25,020 bases of DNA from a virus. Location: positions 1 through 25,020 of IMG/VR virus record IMGVR_UViG_3300048927_000245; one strand, written 5' to 3'. Made by a program: the position numbers and the translations under genes. Within the stretch, counting starts at the first letter, position 1. Every line of letters starts with the position of its first letter. Below the pieces are notes generated by a model that did not search any database, was not told the DNA's origin, and saw only the letters and a program-made list of their open reading frames with translations. This document shows, piece after piece, positions 463-19,242 of this stretch.

Positions 463-1943
463 TGGCCCGACATTATCCGACGCTAACCCGTAACGGATTC
501 TTGCTGCCGTCGAACATCAGGGCCAGCTACGAAGGCGCCGGAGAGGGCCGTCGTTCGGCCAGTTGGGAAGCCACCGACAACGGCATCAATAGCATCAACA
601 CCCCGGCCCTGCGCAACCTGCGGGCTCGCTCGCGGGCGGCGGTGCGCAATGACCCGTACGCGTTCAACGTCATCGACAAGCGCGCCAGCAACCTGATCGG
701 CACGGGCATTACACCCAGGCCGACCACGGACGATGCGGCACTGCGCAAACTCAAGCAGCAGCTGTGGGATGACTGGGTGGATGAAGCGGACGCCGACGAA
801 CTGACCGACTTCTACGGCATGCAGGCCCTGGTGGCGCGCACCGTGGAAACTGCCGGTGAGTGCTTTGTGCGGTTGCGACCGCGCAGCCCGAGCGAAGGTC
901 TAGCTGTGCCGCTGCAGTTGCAGGCGTTGGCACCTGAGTTTGTCCCTCACGACAAGTTCGAGACGGCCAAAAACGGCAACGTTATCCGCGCCGGGATCGA
1001 GTTCAACCCAGCCGGCAAGCGGGTGGCGTACTGGATGTACTTGTCGCACCCACGCGATTCATCGTCGCTGAATGCCGGTTACAACCAGTTGGTGCGCGTA
1101 CCGGCAACACAGGTGCTGCACATCTTCGAACCGATGGAGCCTGGGCAGTTGCGCGGCGTGCCGCGTCTGGCTCCAGTGTTGAAACGCCTGCGCAGTCTCG
1201 ACAACTACGACGACGCGGTGCTGTTCCGGCAGGAGGTGGCGAACCTGTTCGCGGGCTTCATCAAGCGCCCGGCACCGGAGGCAATGCAGCAGCCTCGCGA
1301 TCCCGTTACTGGCATGCCATTAAACGTTGACCGAGACGGTTTCACACCGATGGTGGCCCTGGAGCCCGGCACCATGCAGGAACTGGGGCCAGGTGAAGAG
1401 GTGGAGTTCTCCAAGCCACCGGACGCAGGCAACAACTATCCGGACTTCATGCGGCAGCAACTGATGGCTGCGGCGGCGGGTTCGGGCACACCTTACGAAA
1501 TCCTCACCGGCGACATGCGCGAGGTCAACGACCGGGCGCTGCGGGTGGTGCTCAACGAGTTTCGTCGGCGCCTCGAGCAACTGCAATTCGGCGTGTACGT
1601 GCACCAGCTGTGTCGCCCGGTGCGCGCCGCGTGGATGGACATGGCGGTGTTGTCCGGCGCCCTGGTGCTGGAAGACTACGCGCAACGGCGCCGCGAATAC
1701 CTGCGCACACGTTGGGTACCGCAAGGCTGGGCCTACATCCAACCGGTGCAGGACGTACAGGCGCGGAGGATGGAAGTGCAGGCGGGCTTTGGTTCGCGCA
1801 GTGAAATGTGTCTGCGCAACGGTTACGACGCCGAAACCATCGACGCTGAAAACGCTGCCGACCTCGCCAGGTCCACTGGCCTCGGTCTCAACTACACGAC
1901 TCTTGATGCCATCGAGCCTATTGATGACAAGGAATTACCATGA
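462..1943 (+). CDS. Phage portal protein, lambda gpB family
   Basis: At 493 residues this matches the lambda-family portal (lambda gpB is about 530). Twelve copies form the ring at one capsid vertex through which DNA enters and leaves. Typical features are the early LRARSRAAVRNDPYAFNVID segment, where fresh rings nucleate in this family, the middle part with VLHIFEPMEPGQLRGVPRLA, and the GTPYEILTGDMREVNDRALR segment near residues 345-365. The C-terminal part is charged and helical. The ATG overlaps the last base of the gpW stop and is preceded by GGAGGCAAGGG. The 3' end overlaps the protease gene by 4 bases, which points to coupled translation. Confidence 0.93.
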   Translation: MARHYPTLTRNGFLLPSNIRASYEGAGEGRRSASWEATDNGINSINTPALRNLRARSRAAVRNDPYAFNVIDKRASNLIGTGITPRPTTDDAALRKLKQQLWDDWVDEADADELTDFYGMQALVARTVETAGECFVRLRPRSPSEGLAVPLQLQALAPEFVPHDKFETAKNGNVIRAGIEFNPAGKRVAYWMYLSHPRDSSSLNAGYNQLVRVPATQVLHIFEPMEPGQLRGVPRLAPVLKRLRSLDNYDDAVLFRQEVANLFAGFIKRPAPEAMQQPRDPVTGMPLNVDRDGFTPMVALEPGTMQELGPGEEVEFSKPPDAGNNYPDFMRQQLMAAAAGSGTPYEILTGDMREVNDRALRVVLNEFRRRLEQLQFGVYVHQLCRPVRAAWMDMAVLSGALVLEDYAQRRREYLRTRWVPQGWAYIQPVQDVQARRMEVQAGFGSRSEMCLRNGYDAETIDAENAADLARSTGLGLNYTTLDAIEPIDDKELP

Positions 1944-12026: not shown

Positions 12027-12530
12027 ATGATTCCTGAAATATTGACCAACTGCGTCATGTTCTGTGACGGCGTGAGCTTTTCCGGTGACGTGCCATCGAT
12101 GACGTTGCCTAAACTGGCAATCAAGAGCGAAGAATACCGGGGCGGCGGCATGAGCGGCCCTGTCGACCTACCCACCGGCTTGGACAAGCTGGAGGCGGCA
12201 TTCACCACCAACGGCGTGCGTAAAGAGTCGCTGAAGTTCTTCGGCCTGGCGGATCAGACCGCGTGCAACCTCGTTTTTCGTGGCTCGTTCAAGGGCCAGA
12301 AAGGCACCGTTAAGTCGGTCGCTGTGACCCTGCGCGGATCGCTCAAAGAAGTGGATATGGGCGATTGGAAGCCGGGCGACAAGGCCGAAATCAAGCATGC
12401 CGTTGCCGTCACTTACTACAAGCTCGAAATCGACGGTCGTGTGATGTTCGAAATCGACTTTGCCAACATGGTGCAGGTGATCAACGGTGTTGATCAGCTG
12501 GCCGCTGAACGTTCGGCCCTGGGCCTCTAA
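12027..12530 (+). CDS. Major tail tube protein, P2 gpFII type
   Basis: This 167-residue protein matches P2 FII (172). It forms the inner tube along which DNA passes. It begins MIPEILTNCVMFCDGVSFSG, with the family's ExxRGGGMSGPVDL region near residues 35-50, then KESLKFFGLADQTACNLVFRG and VKSVAVTLRGSLKEVDMGDW. The C-terminal half has strands typical of the tube fold (VAVTYYKLEIDGRVMFEIDF). AAGGGGGCCGAG gives a very strong ribosome site. It sits directly after the sheath and before E, as in P2. Confidence 0.95.
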   Translation: MIPEILTNCVMFCDGVSFSGDVPSMTLPKLAIKSEEYRGGGMSGPVDLPTGLDKLEAAFTTNGVRKESLKFFGLADQTACNLVFRGSFKGQKGTVKSVAVTLRGSLKEVDMGDWKPGDKAEIKHAVAVTYYKLEIDGRVMFEIDFANMVQVINGVDQLAAERSALGL

Positions 12531-12541
12531 GGATTGATGAC

Positions 12542-12850
12542 ATGACCGATTCTCTTACTGCGCCGCTGCCTACCTGGCTGACCCTGAGTGACGACGGCGT
12601 TACGGTAACGCTCAAGCACAAGGCCAATTTCAATGGCGTTGTGACCGACAAGCTGATGATGCGCGCGCCCAGCGTGAAGGATGTTATGGCCGCCAAGATC
12701 GCCGGCAATGGTGACCATGAAAAGGTGGAGCTGAATTTGTTTTCCAGCCTGCTCATGGCTACTGAGGCCGAACTCACAGCCCTCAAATACAAGGACTACA
12801 TGCGCCTCCAGGCGGGCTATTTTCGCCTGGTTGAGGAAGACGACGTGTAA
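12542..12850 (+). CDS. Tail assembly chaperone, gpE (Mu gp41 / P2 E-like)
   Basis: The 102-residue protein (MTDSLTAPLPTWLTLSDDGV) begins strand-rich with TVTLKHKANFNGVVTDKLMMR, then PSVKDVMAAKI and the helical part LLMATEAELTALKYKDYMRLQ that is typical for short tail assembly chaperones of contractile phages. These bind the tape measure protein until the tube is built. It ends with an acidic LVEEDDV. The ATG is preceded by AAGGATTGAC. Downstream in another frame lies the E'-like ORF, so a longer E-E' protein may be produced by recoding; the family is known for this. Confidence 0.82.
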   Translation: MTDSLTAPLPTWLTLSDDGVTVTLKHKANFNGVVTDKLMMRAPSVKDVMAAKIAGNGDHEKVELNLFSSLLMATEAELTALKYKDYMRLQAGYFRLVEEDDV

Positions 12851-12962
12851 CGAATCCACGCTCAAGGTGCTGGCCAAGCGCTTGGCAAAAGAGACGGGTT
12901 TTTCGTCTGCCGAGATCCTGGCCATGCCCTTTAACGTGATGGTGTGGTGGCTCACGGATTGA
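12849..12962 (+). CDS. gpE'-like extension in another reading frame (probable recoded product of E)
   Basis: The frame is open from 12735 to the stop at 12960-12962 and so overlaps the end of E by more than 100 bases. The part past the E stop reads NESTLKVLAKRLAKETGFSS, then AEILAMPFNVMVWWLTD. The FSSAEILAMPFNVMVWWL pattern fits the short GpE-type chaperone extension of contractile phages. It has no ATG with a ribosome site; the first alternative starts after the E stop (GTG at 12867) have no ribosome site either. The simplest route is ribosomal recoding in E by +1 or -2. The reading is too short for confident homology; position before the tape measure gene is what supports it. Confidence 0.6.
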   Translation, partial: NESTLKVLAKRLAKETGFSSAEILAMPFNVMVWWLTD

Positions 12963-12998: not shown

Positions 12999-15485
12999 AT
13001 GGCGAACAAACTTGCTCTCGGCCTGGTGATTGGCGGGGCCGTCAGCTCGACGGTAGGGGCGGCGTTCAAGGACGTCAGCAACAAAATTAAAAAGCTGGAG
13101 GAACAAGGCAACAGGGCGCGGGTACTGCAAAAGACCATCGGCGAAACCATGCGTTTGCGTGAGGAATGGCTCAAAGCGCACATGGCCGGCGAAAAGGGCG
13201 CTGATGCGCTACGGCGGAAGCTGGAGAATAATCTGGATGGCCTGCGTAAGCAGGGCGTGGAAGTGCGCAATCTGACCAAGGCTTACGCGGCCATGGGGCA
13301 GGCGGCGACCAAGGCAGAGCTAAAAGCCAAGGGCCATATGCAGCTTGATGCTGGTAAACAGCAGTTGAAAAGCAGCATAGGCCAGGCGGCGGCGGCCACG
13401 GCCGCGATGGCCGTTCCTACGAAGGTTAGCGCGGACTTTGGCGCGATCATTCGTGACATTGCGATCAAGGCGAACATTGCCAACAAGCCCGAAGAAGCGC
13501 AGATGGCCAAGACGATTATTGGCACGTCGCGCGATACCGGCATGGCCCGTAATCAGGTGGCCGAGGTGGTCAACGCTTTGGTGGGTGCCGGCATGGAGCT
13601 TGATAAGGCCATGTCTTACGCACCGGTGGCGGCAAAGTTTGCAATTGGCCAGGGGTCGGACGGCGGCGAAACGGCCCGCATGATCAACGCTCTGGGGCAG
13701 AACGCCAAAATCTCCGATCCGGCCGTGATGCAAAAGGCGCTGGAGGCCATCGCCTATCAGGGCCAGGCGGGCAGTTTTGAAGCGGCCGACATGGCGCGCT
13801 GGTTCCCCGAGCTGCTGGCAGGTATGGGCAAGATCGGCATTACTGGCATGGATGCGGTCACGCAGCTGGGCTCAATGCTTCAGGTGCAAATGAAGACCGC
13901 CGGCGGTGCCGACGAAGCGGCCAACAACCTCAAAAACTGGATGGAGAAAATCGGTTCTGGCGATACCGTCAAGGCCTACAAGGATGCCGGGATTGACTAT
14001 CAAGGGTCGATGAATACCGGCCTGCAGAACGGTAAATCCACCCTGGAATCCAGCTTTGAGCTGGCACAGAAGTACATTGCGGCAACGGATCCGAAGAAGG
14101 CCGCCGCCATGGCCGCCGCTACGGCGAAGATCAGTAAGGAGACTGATCCCGAGAAAGCCAAGGCCATGATTGCCTCCTTGGAACAGGCTTTGCGTACCGG
14201 GGATCTGTTCGCAGACATGCAGGTTAAGGGTGCTTTGACGGCCTTCATGCAGAACAAAGAGCTGTACGCGCAGCTCAAGAAAGACTCGGCCAGTGCCACC
14301 GGGATCCTTGATAAGAACCTTGAGGAACGCAGGCAGGCGTCAGCGCAAAAATGGGCGGAAATGGCCCAGGGCATGGATGACGCCATGCGCGCTATTGGTG
14401 ATGCGTTCCGGCCGGTCACTGACAAAGTGGCGGATGGCCTGGCTTACGTCTCCCAGGGGCTGGCCAAGCTGTCGGACGAATCGCCCCGGGTTGTGACCGG
14501 TATCGGCGCTGCCGTTGCCGCCGTGATCGCTTTCCAGACCGCTATGAGCGGATTCAAGATCGCCAAGGGCCTGCTCAACCTTGGGCGCGGCTCGTTGATG
14601 GGTAATCCCAATATCCCGCAAAAAGTCATTGTTACCAACATGCCCATGGGTGGGTCTGGTGGCATGGATTTGGGTGGCGTCGATGACGCTGGCGGTAAGG
14701 ATGGGAAGGGCAAGGGCAGGGGGGGCGGCCGTGGCCGAAGCCCAGGCCGTGGCGTTGGCGCGGGCCTGAAGGGGCCGGCGGTGTTGGCTGTAATTGAGGC
14801 CGGCTTTAAGGTCAAAGACACTTACGACAACGCTGAAACCCAGGACGAAAAAGCTGAAGGCTATGGCGCGGCGGCCGGCGGGCTTGCTGGCACTCTTGCC
14901 GGTGCGGCGGCCGGTGCTGCAATCGGGTCGGCGGTACCGGTAATCGGCACCATCTTGGGCGGCCTGATTGGTGGGTATCTAGGGAGCTTGGGCGGTGACG
15001 CCCTGGGCGGTGCCATCGGCAAGTCGGTGTTTGGCGCTGACGAAAGCAAGAAGGTCATGCCCGTGGCCGGCCCATTGATGATGAAGGATGCCGGCAAGGA
15101 CATCCCGCCGGCATTAGGGGATATCGCCAAGTCGTTTGCCCCGTCGCGCACTGGGCCTCTCATGTTGACCAATCCGGGCCAGGGCGCGTTACCGACAGCA
15201 CCTGGCGCAGTTAACCCGGGTGATGCCGCTCGCTCCATGATGTTGCCACAGGGTAGTGCTGACGCGTTTGCAGCGCCACTTGCTGCGGCCGTGGTGTCGA
15301 AGGTCCAGCCGGCCAAGATCGAGCCCAAGGTGGACATTCAGGCGCCTATCACGCTGACGGTGCAAGGCGATGTGAAGGATCCGGCCGAGCTTATGGCCCA
15401 GCTGCGGCCGCTGATGGAGCAGCAGCAACGGGAAATCGCCCAGCAGCTCGAAAACCGCAAGCTATACGACGCGCCGCATACCTAA
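12999..15485 (+). CDS. Tape measure protein, P2 gpT type
   Basis: At 828 residues it matches P2 gpT (815) and is by far the longest gene, as expected because its length sets the tail length. Residues 20-110 are strongly helical and charged (coiled coil: DVSNKIKKLEEQGNRARVLQ). A central part around residues 130-330 has the TP901-type tape measure pattern (VAEVVNALVGAGMELDKAMS; MARWFPELLAGMGKIGITGM). Two hydrophobic stretches lie near residues 497-530 and 627-675; the second is almost pure Gly/Ala/Leu/Ile and is separated from the first by a Gly/Lys/Arg-rich linker near 565-590. Such segments may enter the inner membrane at DNA delivery. The last 60 residues are helical. Only a weak ribosome site precedes it. 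Confidence 0.95.
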   Translation: MANKLALGLVIGGAVSSTVGAAFKDVSNKIKKLEEQGNRARVLQKTIGETMRLREEWLKAHMAGEKGADALRRKLENNLDGLRKQGVEVRNLTKAYAAMGQAATKAELKAKGHMQLDAGKQQLKSSIGQAAAATAAMAVPTKVSADFGAIIRDIAIKANIANKPEEAQMAKTIIGTSRDTGMARNQVAEVVNALVGAGMELDKAMSYAPVAAKFAIGQGSDGGETARMINALGQNAKISDPAVMQKALEAIAYQGQAGSFEAADMARWFPELLAGMGKIGITGMDAVTQLGSMLQVQMKTAGGADEAANNLKNWMEKIGSGDTVKAYKDAGIDYQGSMNTGLQNGKSTLESSFELAQKYIAATDPKKAAAMAAATAKISKETDPEKAKAMIASLEQALRTGDLFADMQVKGALTAFMQNKELYAQLKKDSASATGILDKNLEERRQASAQKWAEMAQGMDDAMRAIGDAFRPVTDKVADGLAYVSQGLAKLSDESPRVVTGIGAAVAAVIAFQTAMSGFKIAKGLLNLGRGSLMGNPNIPQKVIVTNMPMGGSGGMDLGGVDDAGGKDGKGKGRGGGRGRSPGRGVGAGLKGPAVLAVIEAGFKVKDTYDNAETQDEKAEGYGAAAGGLAGTLAGAAAGAAIGSAVPVIGTILGGLIGGYLGSLGGDALGGAIGKSVFGADESKKVMPVAGPLMMKDAGKDIPPALGDIAKSFAPSRTGPLMLTNPGQGALPTAPGAVNPGDAARSMMLPQGSADAFAAPLAAAVVSKVQPAKIEPKVDIQAPITLTVQGDVKDPAELMAQLRPLMEQQQREIAQQLENRKLYDAPHT

Positions 15486-18873: not shown

Positions 18874-19242
18874 ATGCATTTGATAAATCTATTTAAGCGA
18901 TATGCAACTGTAGGTGTGTTAAATACCGCAGTTCATTGGCTAGTTTTTCTTTTAACGTTTTACGTGATCGGTTTTGAGCAATCTGTCAGCAACTTCATAG
19001 CGTTCTGCGTTGCGGTGAGCTTTTCTTTTGTTGTGAATTCTAGATTTACATTCAAACGCAAGGCGACTGGCGTAATGTATGTGGTGTATGTTGTCTTTAT
19101 GGGGTGCTTGAGTTTGCTGGTAGGGGCGATATCTGATTTGTTTCAGTTTATTCCTCTGTTAACTCTAATTGTGTTCTCAGTTGTCAGTCTCGTTATTGGC
19201 TTTTTGTTCTCAAGGTTTGTTATTTTTCGGGATGCGAAATAA
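18874..19242 (+). CDS. GtrA-like flippase of undecaprenyl-phosphate sugar
   Basis: The 122-residue protein has four predicted membrane segments: residues 12-32, 37-55, 67-87 and 93-115. The pattern [20 protein letters not shown] at the start and [14 protein letters not shown] in the middle are classic for the GtrA family, as is the ending [13 protein letters not shown]. GtrA flips lipid-linked glucose across the inner membrane for O-antigen modification. The start may be the ATG at 18874 or the TTG at 18880; many homologues begin M-I-x-L-F-x-R-Y, which favours the TTG slightly. The gtrB start overlaps its stop by one base. DNA here is clearly AT-richer than the late genes. Confidence 0.88.

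Follow-up and report, generated by a model that had tools for sequence, protein, structure and literature searches.

The tail assembly chaperones of bacteriophages P2 (Peduoviridae; E/E+E′) and lambda (G/GT) are encoded between the tail tube and the tape measure genes, and each consists of a short form and a minor, longer form reached by a −1 ribosomal frameshift. In P2 the direction was established experimentally (PMC3091744), and the shift lies inside the sequence ...GGT TTT TTG. Tail chaperones that use −2 or +1 shifts are already known as well (PMC5009743; PMC10274946). A +1 shift was considered "very likely" in the haloarchaeal myovirus HSTV-2 (PMC5009743), and the PRFect training set includes 350 forward positive sites in annotated data, which are annotation-based rather than experimental (PMC10274946). 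The influenza A protein PA-X is produced by a +1 shift at UCC_UUU_CGU, as determined by mass spectrometry, where UUU re-pairs with UUC; its authors predicted a UUU_C class of sites and did not settle whether this class occurs in cellular genes (PMC3498833). Here, we analyzed the whole 25,020 bases (the window) of a linear IMG/VR virus record, IMGVR_UViG_3300048927_000245, in which the contractile-tail assembly chaperone gene E overlaps a second reading frame, E′. Sequence comparison indicates that the long form of this chaperone is very probably the product of a programmed +1 ribosomal frameshift.

The E gene (12542–12850, on the forward strand, as are its two neighboring genes and E′) codes for a protein of 102 amino acids in the zero frame that matches the Pfam family PF10109, Phage_TAC_7 (E = 1e-11; 45 bits, cut-off 25). 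The second frame begins after a TGA at 12732–12734 and is open from 12735 to the TGA at 12960–12962, encoding 75 amino acids in the +1 frame relative to E. The candidate shift site, UUU_C (12821–12824), has the context UAU_UUU_CGC_CUG (12818–12829). Shortly downstream, the −1 frame is closed by a TGA (12832–12834), and E ends at a TAA (12848–12850). After a +1 shift the E′ portion (12825–12962) would read AWLRKTTCNESTLKVLAKRLAKETGFSSAEILAMPFNVMVWWLTD followed by the TGA, and the E-E′ fusion would have 139 amino acids. A preliminary description of this DNA had located correctly the end of E at 12850, the second frame at 12735–12962, the +1 relation and the closure of the −1 frame, as well as the motifs TTT_C, GTG_TAA_C (12845–12851) and GAGGA (12833–12837). 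It had also called the end of the second frame "GpE-like", a label that was not sustained: there is no match to a GpE family in Pfam, and the E′ of P2 resembles the present E′ at the motif level only, in the material examined. No Pfam family was found for E′ in either reading at E ≤ 1, and phrog_10636 matched only at E = 0.067. While the position between tube and tape measure genes and the short and longer forms are those of P2 and lambda, the shift proposed here is +1 at UUU_C instead of −1, and neither a downstream −1 frame nor a T_TTT_TTG-like site, the marks of the P2 type, was found. HSTV-2 and the forward chaperones of PRFect are also tail chaperones with a +1 shift; their proteins and sites are different.

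Comparison with relatives yielded a conserved frame, a conserved codon-specific site, homology of E′ to −1 chaperones and a single change of direction. An open frame of 75 codons says little by itself because the DNA is G+C-rich; the real support comes from the conservation of the +1 frame and its protein. A first scan of viral contigs with E as the query yielded 59 relatives, and the E′ domain (..LAKRLAKETGFSAAEIxAMPF..MVWWLTD) was in the +1 frame in every readable one. The set was then extended by scans with E′ and by scans in which bacterial genomes were covered. A profile was also run against 299 Pseudomonas genomes, of which 92 matched, and the final comparison included 198 distinct +1 loci. 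E′ is in the +1 frame in 198 of the 198, and the −1 frame reaches a stop within 45 codons in 178. All of the comparative tests agree with the proposal in the preliminary description that the pair requires recoding in an unusual direction, +1 or −2. An in-frame E-E′ fusion was not seen among the relatives examined. Past the E stop, the codons of E′ differed among 88 independent close pairs by 314 synonymous and 166 non-synonymous changes, i.e., 65% were synonymous compared with the 22% expected from random point changes. By this measure of the sequences, E′ is under strong purifying selection at the protein level.

The shift site is conserved at the level of the codon. Exactly one TTT_C is present where both frames are open in each of the 198 loci, so that this candidate from the preliminary description proved invariant. 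The usual context, found in nearly all loci, is GGN TAY TTT CGY NTG. The residues at the site are GYFRL (171 loci), GYFRM (13), AYFRL (9), YTFLV (4) or GYFRV (1), and the codon that follows TTT is CGN in 194 loci and CTG in four. For a codon test, a tree of E was built without the shift site, and 196 sequences were available at the shift-site column. The phenylalanine codon was TTT in all 196, with no synonymous changes on the tree, while a comparison phenylalanine column (96 TTT, 93 TTC) required 27 changes and other twofold columns 13 to 42. The neighboring codons wobble freely (TAT/TAC and CGC/CGT). Ahead of TTT, the +1 frame shows no constraint on its residues; immediately behind TTT, it has alanine or valine and then an invariant tryptophan in nearly all loci.

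The site resembles that of PA-X in the P-site UUU followed by C (198/198), in the CGN codon at the A site (194/198) and in having no evident stimulatory structure. The differences are that PA-X is an unrelated gene translated by a eukaryotic ribosome, that its E-site codon is UCC instead of the UAU or UAC of the phage loci, and that four phage loci have UUU_CUG. These four loci, together with L425, which has TTT_CAA and may be a divergent relative, suggest that CGN is not essential; the requirement of the +1 frame for alanine or valine and then tryptophan may also preserve it. L425 (approximately 619–1030, reverse strand) carries a divergent E and a weak E′-like +1 frame (LARWFRFQPSEIEALTVERFLTWCEQA), with E′ scoring only 9 bits, and may thus represent another type of +1 locus, one without CGN.

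Three kinds of unusual loci point to the retention of the UUU phenylalanine codon where E′ can be entered from it by a +1 shift. In the four loci with YTFLV (L308, L313, L317 and L320), the phenylalanine is one codon further downstream and TTT_C is displaced with it. Where the E domain is duplicated, the first copy has serine, alanine or threonine at the site (TCG, GCG or ACG) and the copy adjacent to E′ has TTT_CGN, in 18 of 18 loci. In L422 and L423, two copies in one genome, the site of the E homologue reads TTC_A, and E′ is not recognizable. A different short open reading frame (ORF; MNREHELSAELDNYIAGL...) comes next after the E homologue in these two copies. E ORFs with two tandem PF10109-like domains, of about 200 amino acids, were observed in many tail loci of Pseudomonas, namely L095, L096, L099, L302, L312, L318, L321, L325, L326, L330, L333, L335, L341–L346 and L424. 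UUU_C is found only in their second copy, and chaperone domains and E′ must be made in another ratio than with a single-domain E.

From these comparisons we infer the translation of the long form, its efficiency, the movement of the tRNA and the role of the products in assembly. Most ribosomes would translate E and terminate at 12848–12850. In a minority, peptidyl-tRNA-Phe (anticodon GAA) would be in the P site on UUU (12821–12823), with the arginine codon CGC in the A site, and would slip one base forward to re-pair with UUC (12822–12824). A single tRNA-Phe, with anticodon GAA, reads both UUU and UUC, and the third base pair becomes better when the tRNA passes from UUU to UUC, as has been proposed for the PA-X site (PMC3498833). 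After the slip, GCC UGG UUG... would be read until 12962 to produce the 139-amino acid E-E′ protein, with LQAGYFAWLR as the predicted junction peptide. If the roles correspond to those in lambda G/GT and P2 E/E′, E would coat the tape measure protein and E′ would join the complex to the tail tube subunits. Other features of the site were tried and discarded. GAGGA, which resembles a Shine-Dalgarno (SD) sequence and was considered as a stimulator, had been described as an upstream element but is located 3′ of UUU_C, and relatives have GAAGA, ACGGA or CAAGA in its place. A hairpin around the window site (CAGGCG...CGCCUG) did not fold significantly, and its 5′ arm is lost in groups that have TCG in place of CAG. 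Transcriptional slippage was dismissed because the longest T run is four, which is too short for this process.

Distant homologues in which E′ is in the −1 frame were found in Mica (a Burkholderia phage), Persinger (Pseudomonas), ep3 and ECO1230-10 (Escherichia), FoX and Murka (Xanthomonas) and numerous viral contigs, and 80 such loci were compared. Both E and E′ of these phages are homologous to those described here, and the shift takes place around the equivalent phenylalanine near the C-terminus of E, but its direction is −1. The E homology of these relatives was detected at tblastn E values down to 1e-7, and the alignment of the E′ of the +1 clade with the E′ of the −1 chaperones had an hhalign probability of 97.7 (E = 1.4e-12). 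In the −1 clade a T precedes the phenylalanine codon in 79 of the 80 loci and this codon is TTT in 63 and TTC in 17; the resulting xxT_TTY suits a −1 slip, whereas a TTT always followed by C suits a +1 slip. The −1 loci also have about five residues fewer between the shift site and the helix. The only −1 locus without a T before the phenylalanine codon, L251, has GGG_TTT_A near the E stop, possibly with the G run as the slippery site. In the tree of E, the +1 and −1 loci are separated by one branch with a support of 99, and one change is needed. The −1 direction was probably ancestral, since P2 is −1 by experiment and has GGT TTT TTG at the site. The host does not set the direction, as Persinger infects Pseudomonas and yet is −1. 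Among 369 genomes sampled from the class, no +1 case was seen outside the Pseudomonas centre genome, and the two distant matches were −1.

A −2 shift would reach the same downstream frame as a +1 shift, and Mu gp41, which has an equal gene position and final frame offset, is a precedent among tail chaperones (PMC5009743; PMC3498833). The product would have one extra phenylalanine at the junction (LQAGYFFAWLR). However, tRNA-Phe would need to re-pair with AUU after UAU or with ACU after UAC, and UAC precedes UUU in 26 of the 198 loci and ACN does so in four more, with no compensation. Re-pairing of the P-site tRNA two bases back, as in Mu, is therefore not what the loci offer, and nothing similar to the G-rich site of Mu (CGG GGG CGA in the Mu sequence) is present. 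In addition, the constraint upstream of TTT that a −2 shift predicts was not seen, the invariant part being TTT_C. A −2 shift is thus highly unlikely. Even less probable is the translation of E′ from its own start codon, through re-initiation or coupling to the E stop. Some loci do have TTG, GTG or ATG in the +1 frame, including TTG at 12831 and GTG at 12867 in the window, but 56 of the 198 have none of them before the conserved helix, only 26 have a candidate with a four-nucleotide match to an SD sequence, and no start is common across groups. The window TTG is TCN and the GTG is GCG in other groups. An independent start would also leave the invariance of TTT and the pattern of the duplicated E domains unexplained.

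The preliminary description had offered GTG_TAA_C as another candidate, which would place the +1 shift at the stop of E in the manner of release factor 2. The +1 shifts of prfB and of the Listeria phage tsh are favored by a stop codon at the A site (PMC5009743). In the loci compared here, however, the stop can be TAA, TAG or TGA, the preceding codon GTG, GTT, GAC, CTT or CTG, and the next base varies; re-pairing of the valine GUG with UGU would be poor. The E stop is 7 to 23 codons downstream of TTT and differs in type, which excludes it as the site, and we give this explanation almost no credence. No greater chance can be assigned to the +1 frame being a fossil, with E′ decayed or a separate ORF and no fusion made. 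The E-E′ fusion is a prediction from sequence, which would allow this explanation, but the strong purifying selection on E′, the conservation of the site at the codon level and the 198 intact loci stand against it, as does the homology to the E′ of Mica, annotated by its depositors as a frameshift product.

Some observations weigh against a programmed +1 shift at UUU_C. Relatives were compared for an interrupted downstream frame or an independent start, as the preliminary description had recommended, and neither was found except in the Pseudomonas morbosilactucae copy (L086). In this locus, the sole apparently broken pair in the +1 clade, E′ is out of register and contains stops; the copy lies at the end of a contig and has probably decayed. 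The loci are related by descent, and their counts are not independent events, for which the parsimony counts allow in part. If the shift took place upstream of TTT, the need for phenylalanine (TTC) in the +1 frame would also favor TTT, although the +1 residues immediately before TTT vary freely, which speaks against this location. No stimulatory RNA structure was detected at the site, with fold z-scores of −1.5, −0.9 and −0.5, none of them significant. Finally, CGC and CGU are, to our knowledge, not rare in Pseudomonas, and codon rarity gives no cause for a pause.

The surroundings of E are those of a P2-like contractile tail, which the window encodes together with a lambda-family portal, a ClpP-like protease and a capsid E protein. 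E lies between FII, the major tail tube gene on its 5′ side (12027–12530; PF04985, Phage_tube, E = 7.3e-60), and the tape measure gene on its 3′ side (12999–15485; PF10145, PhageMin_Tail, E = 2.1e-25), the place occupied by frameshifted chaperones of the lambda G/GT type. At the DNA level, blastn against phages gave no match. After the lysis region, the window has at 18874–21826 genes for a gtrA-like flippase, a glycosyltransferase 2 and a DUF6056 protein, which resemble an O-antigen (serotype) conversion cassette.

Loci with the +1 arrangement were also found outside complete phages. OQ658366 (L387), deposited as "Pseudomonas phage sp., complete genome", has E/E′ with TAC_TTT_CGC, sheath and P2 GpU genes, a DksA/TraR zinc finger protein and an HTH-S24 repressor, and is flanked by a trpG-like GATase and a trpD-like Glycos_transf_3. 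Capsid, portal and terminase are absent among its 25 annotated features. The trp flanks, the regulators and the lack of an annotated head gene point to a P. aeruginosa locus for an R-type pyocin. Several product names in this record look wrong, e.g., GpU is called an XRE regulator. L419 is a +1 locus near recA with contractile-tail genes; its location and genes are as expected for a tailocin, in a search for head genes that was not exhaustive. From their sequences, R-type pyocins, with which Pseudomonas cells kill rivals, apparently also use the +1 E/E′. Bacterial +1 sites of the PA-X kind (UUU_CGN) likely had a single origin, in a −1 site at the phenylalanine codon that corresponds to theirs in a tail chaperone, and would now be used for the E/E′ chaperones of Pseudomonas contractile phages and also of R-type pyocins and tailocins, which work for the cell.

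Within the open-access literature searched, three elements are new: that Pseudomonas phages and R-type pyocins share a family of +1 E/E′ pairs, that the site of this family is like that of PA-X, and that homologous genes are shifted in opposite directions; no earlier report of a +1 shift in Pseudomonas P2-like tails or R pyocins was found in that literature, with subscription journals mostly outside its scope. The direction of a frameshift is usually taken as fixed for a gene family. Here, two clades read a homologous pair in opposite directions, −1 and +1, the signature of the site differs by clade, and there is one switch on the tree, which makes possible a direct test of how the identity of the site sets the direction. 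The site is a bacterial counterpart of that of influenza PA-X. Antibacterial use of R-type pyocins is under study. Since the E′ segment is unannotated in OQ658366, synonymous recoding could remove UUU_C from a recombinant cluster, and tail assembly could then fail.
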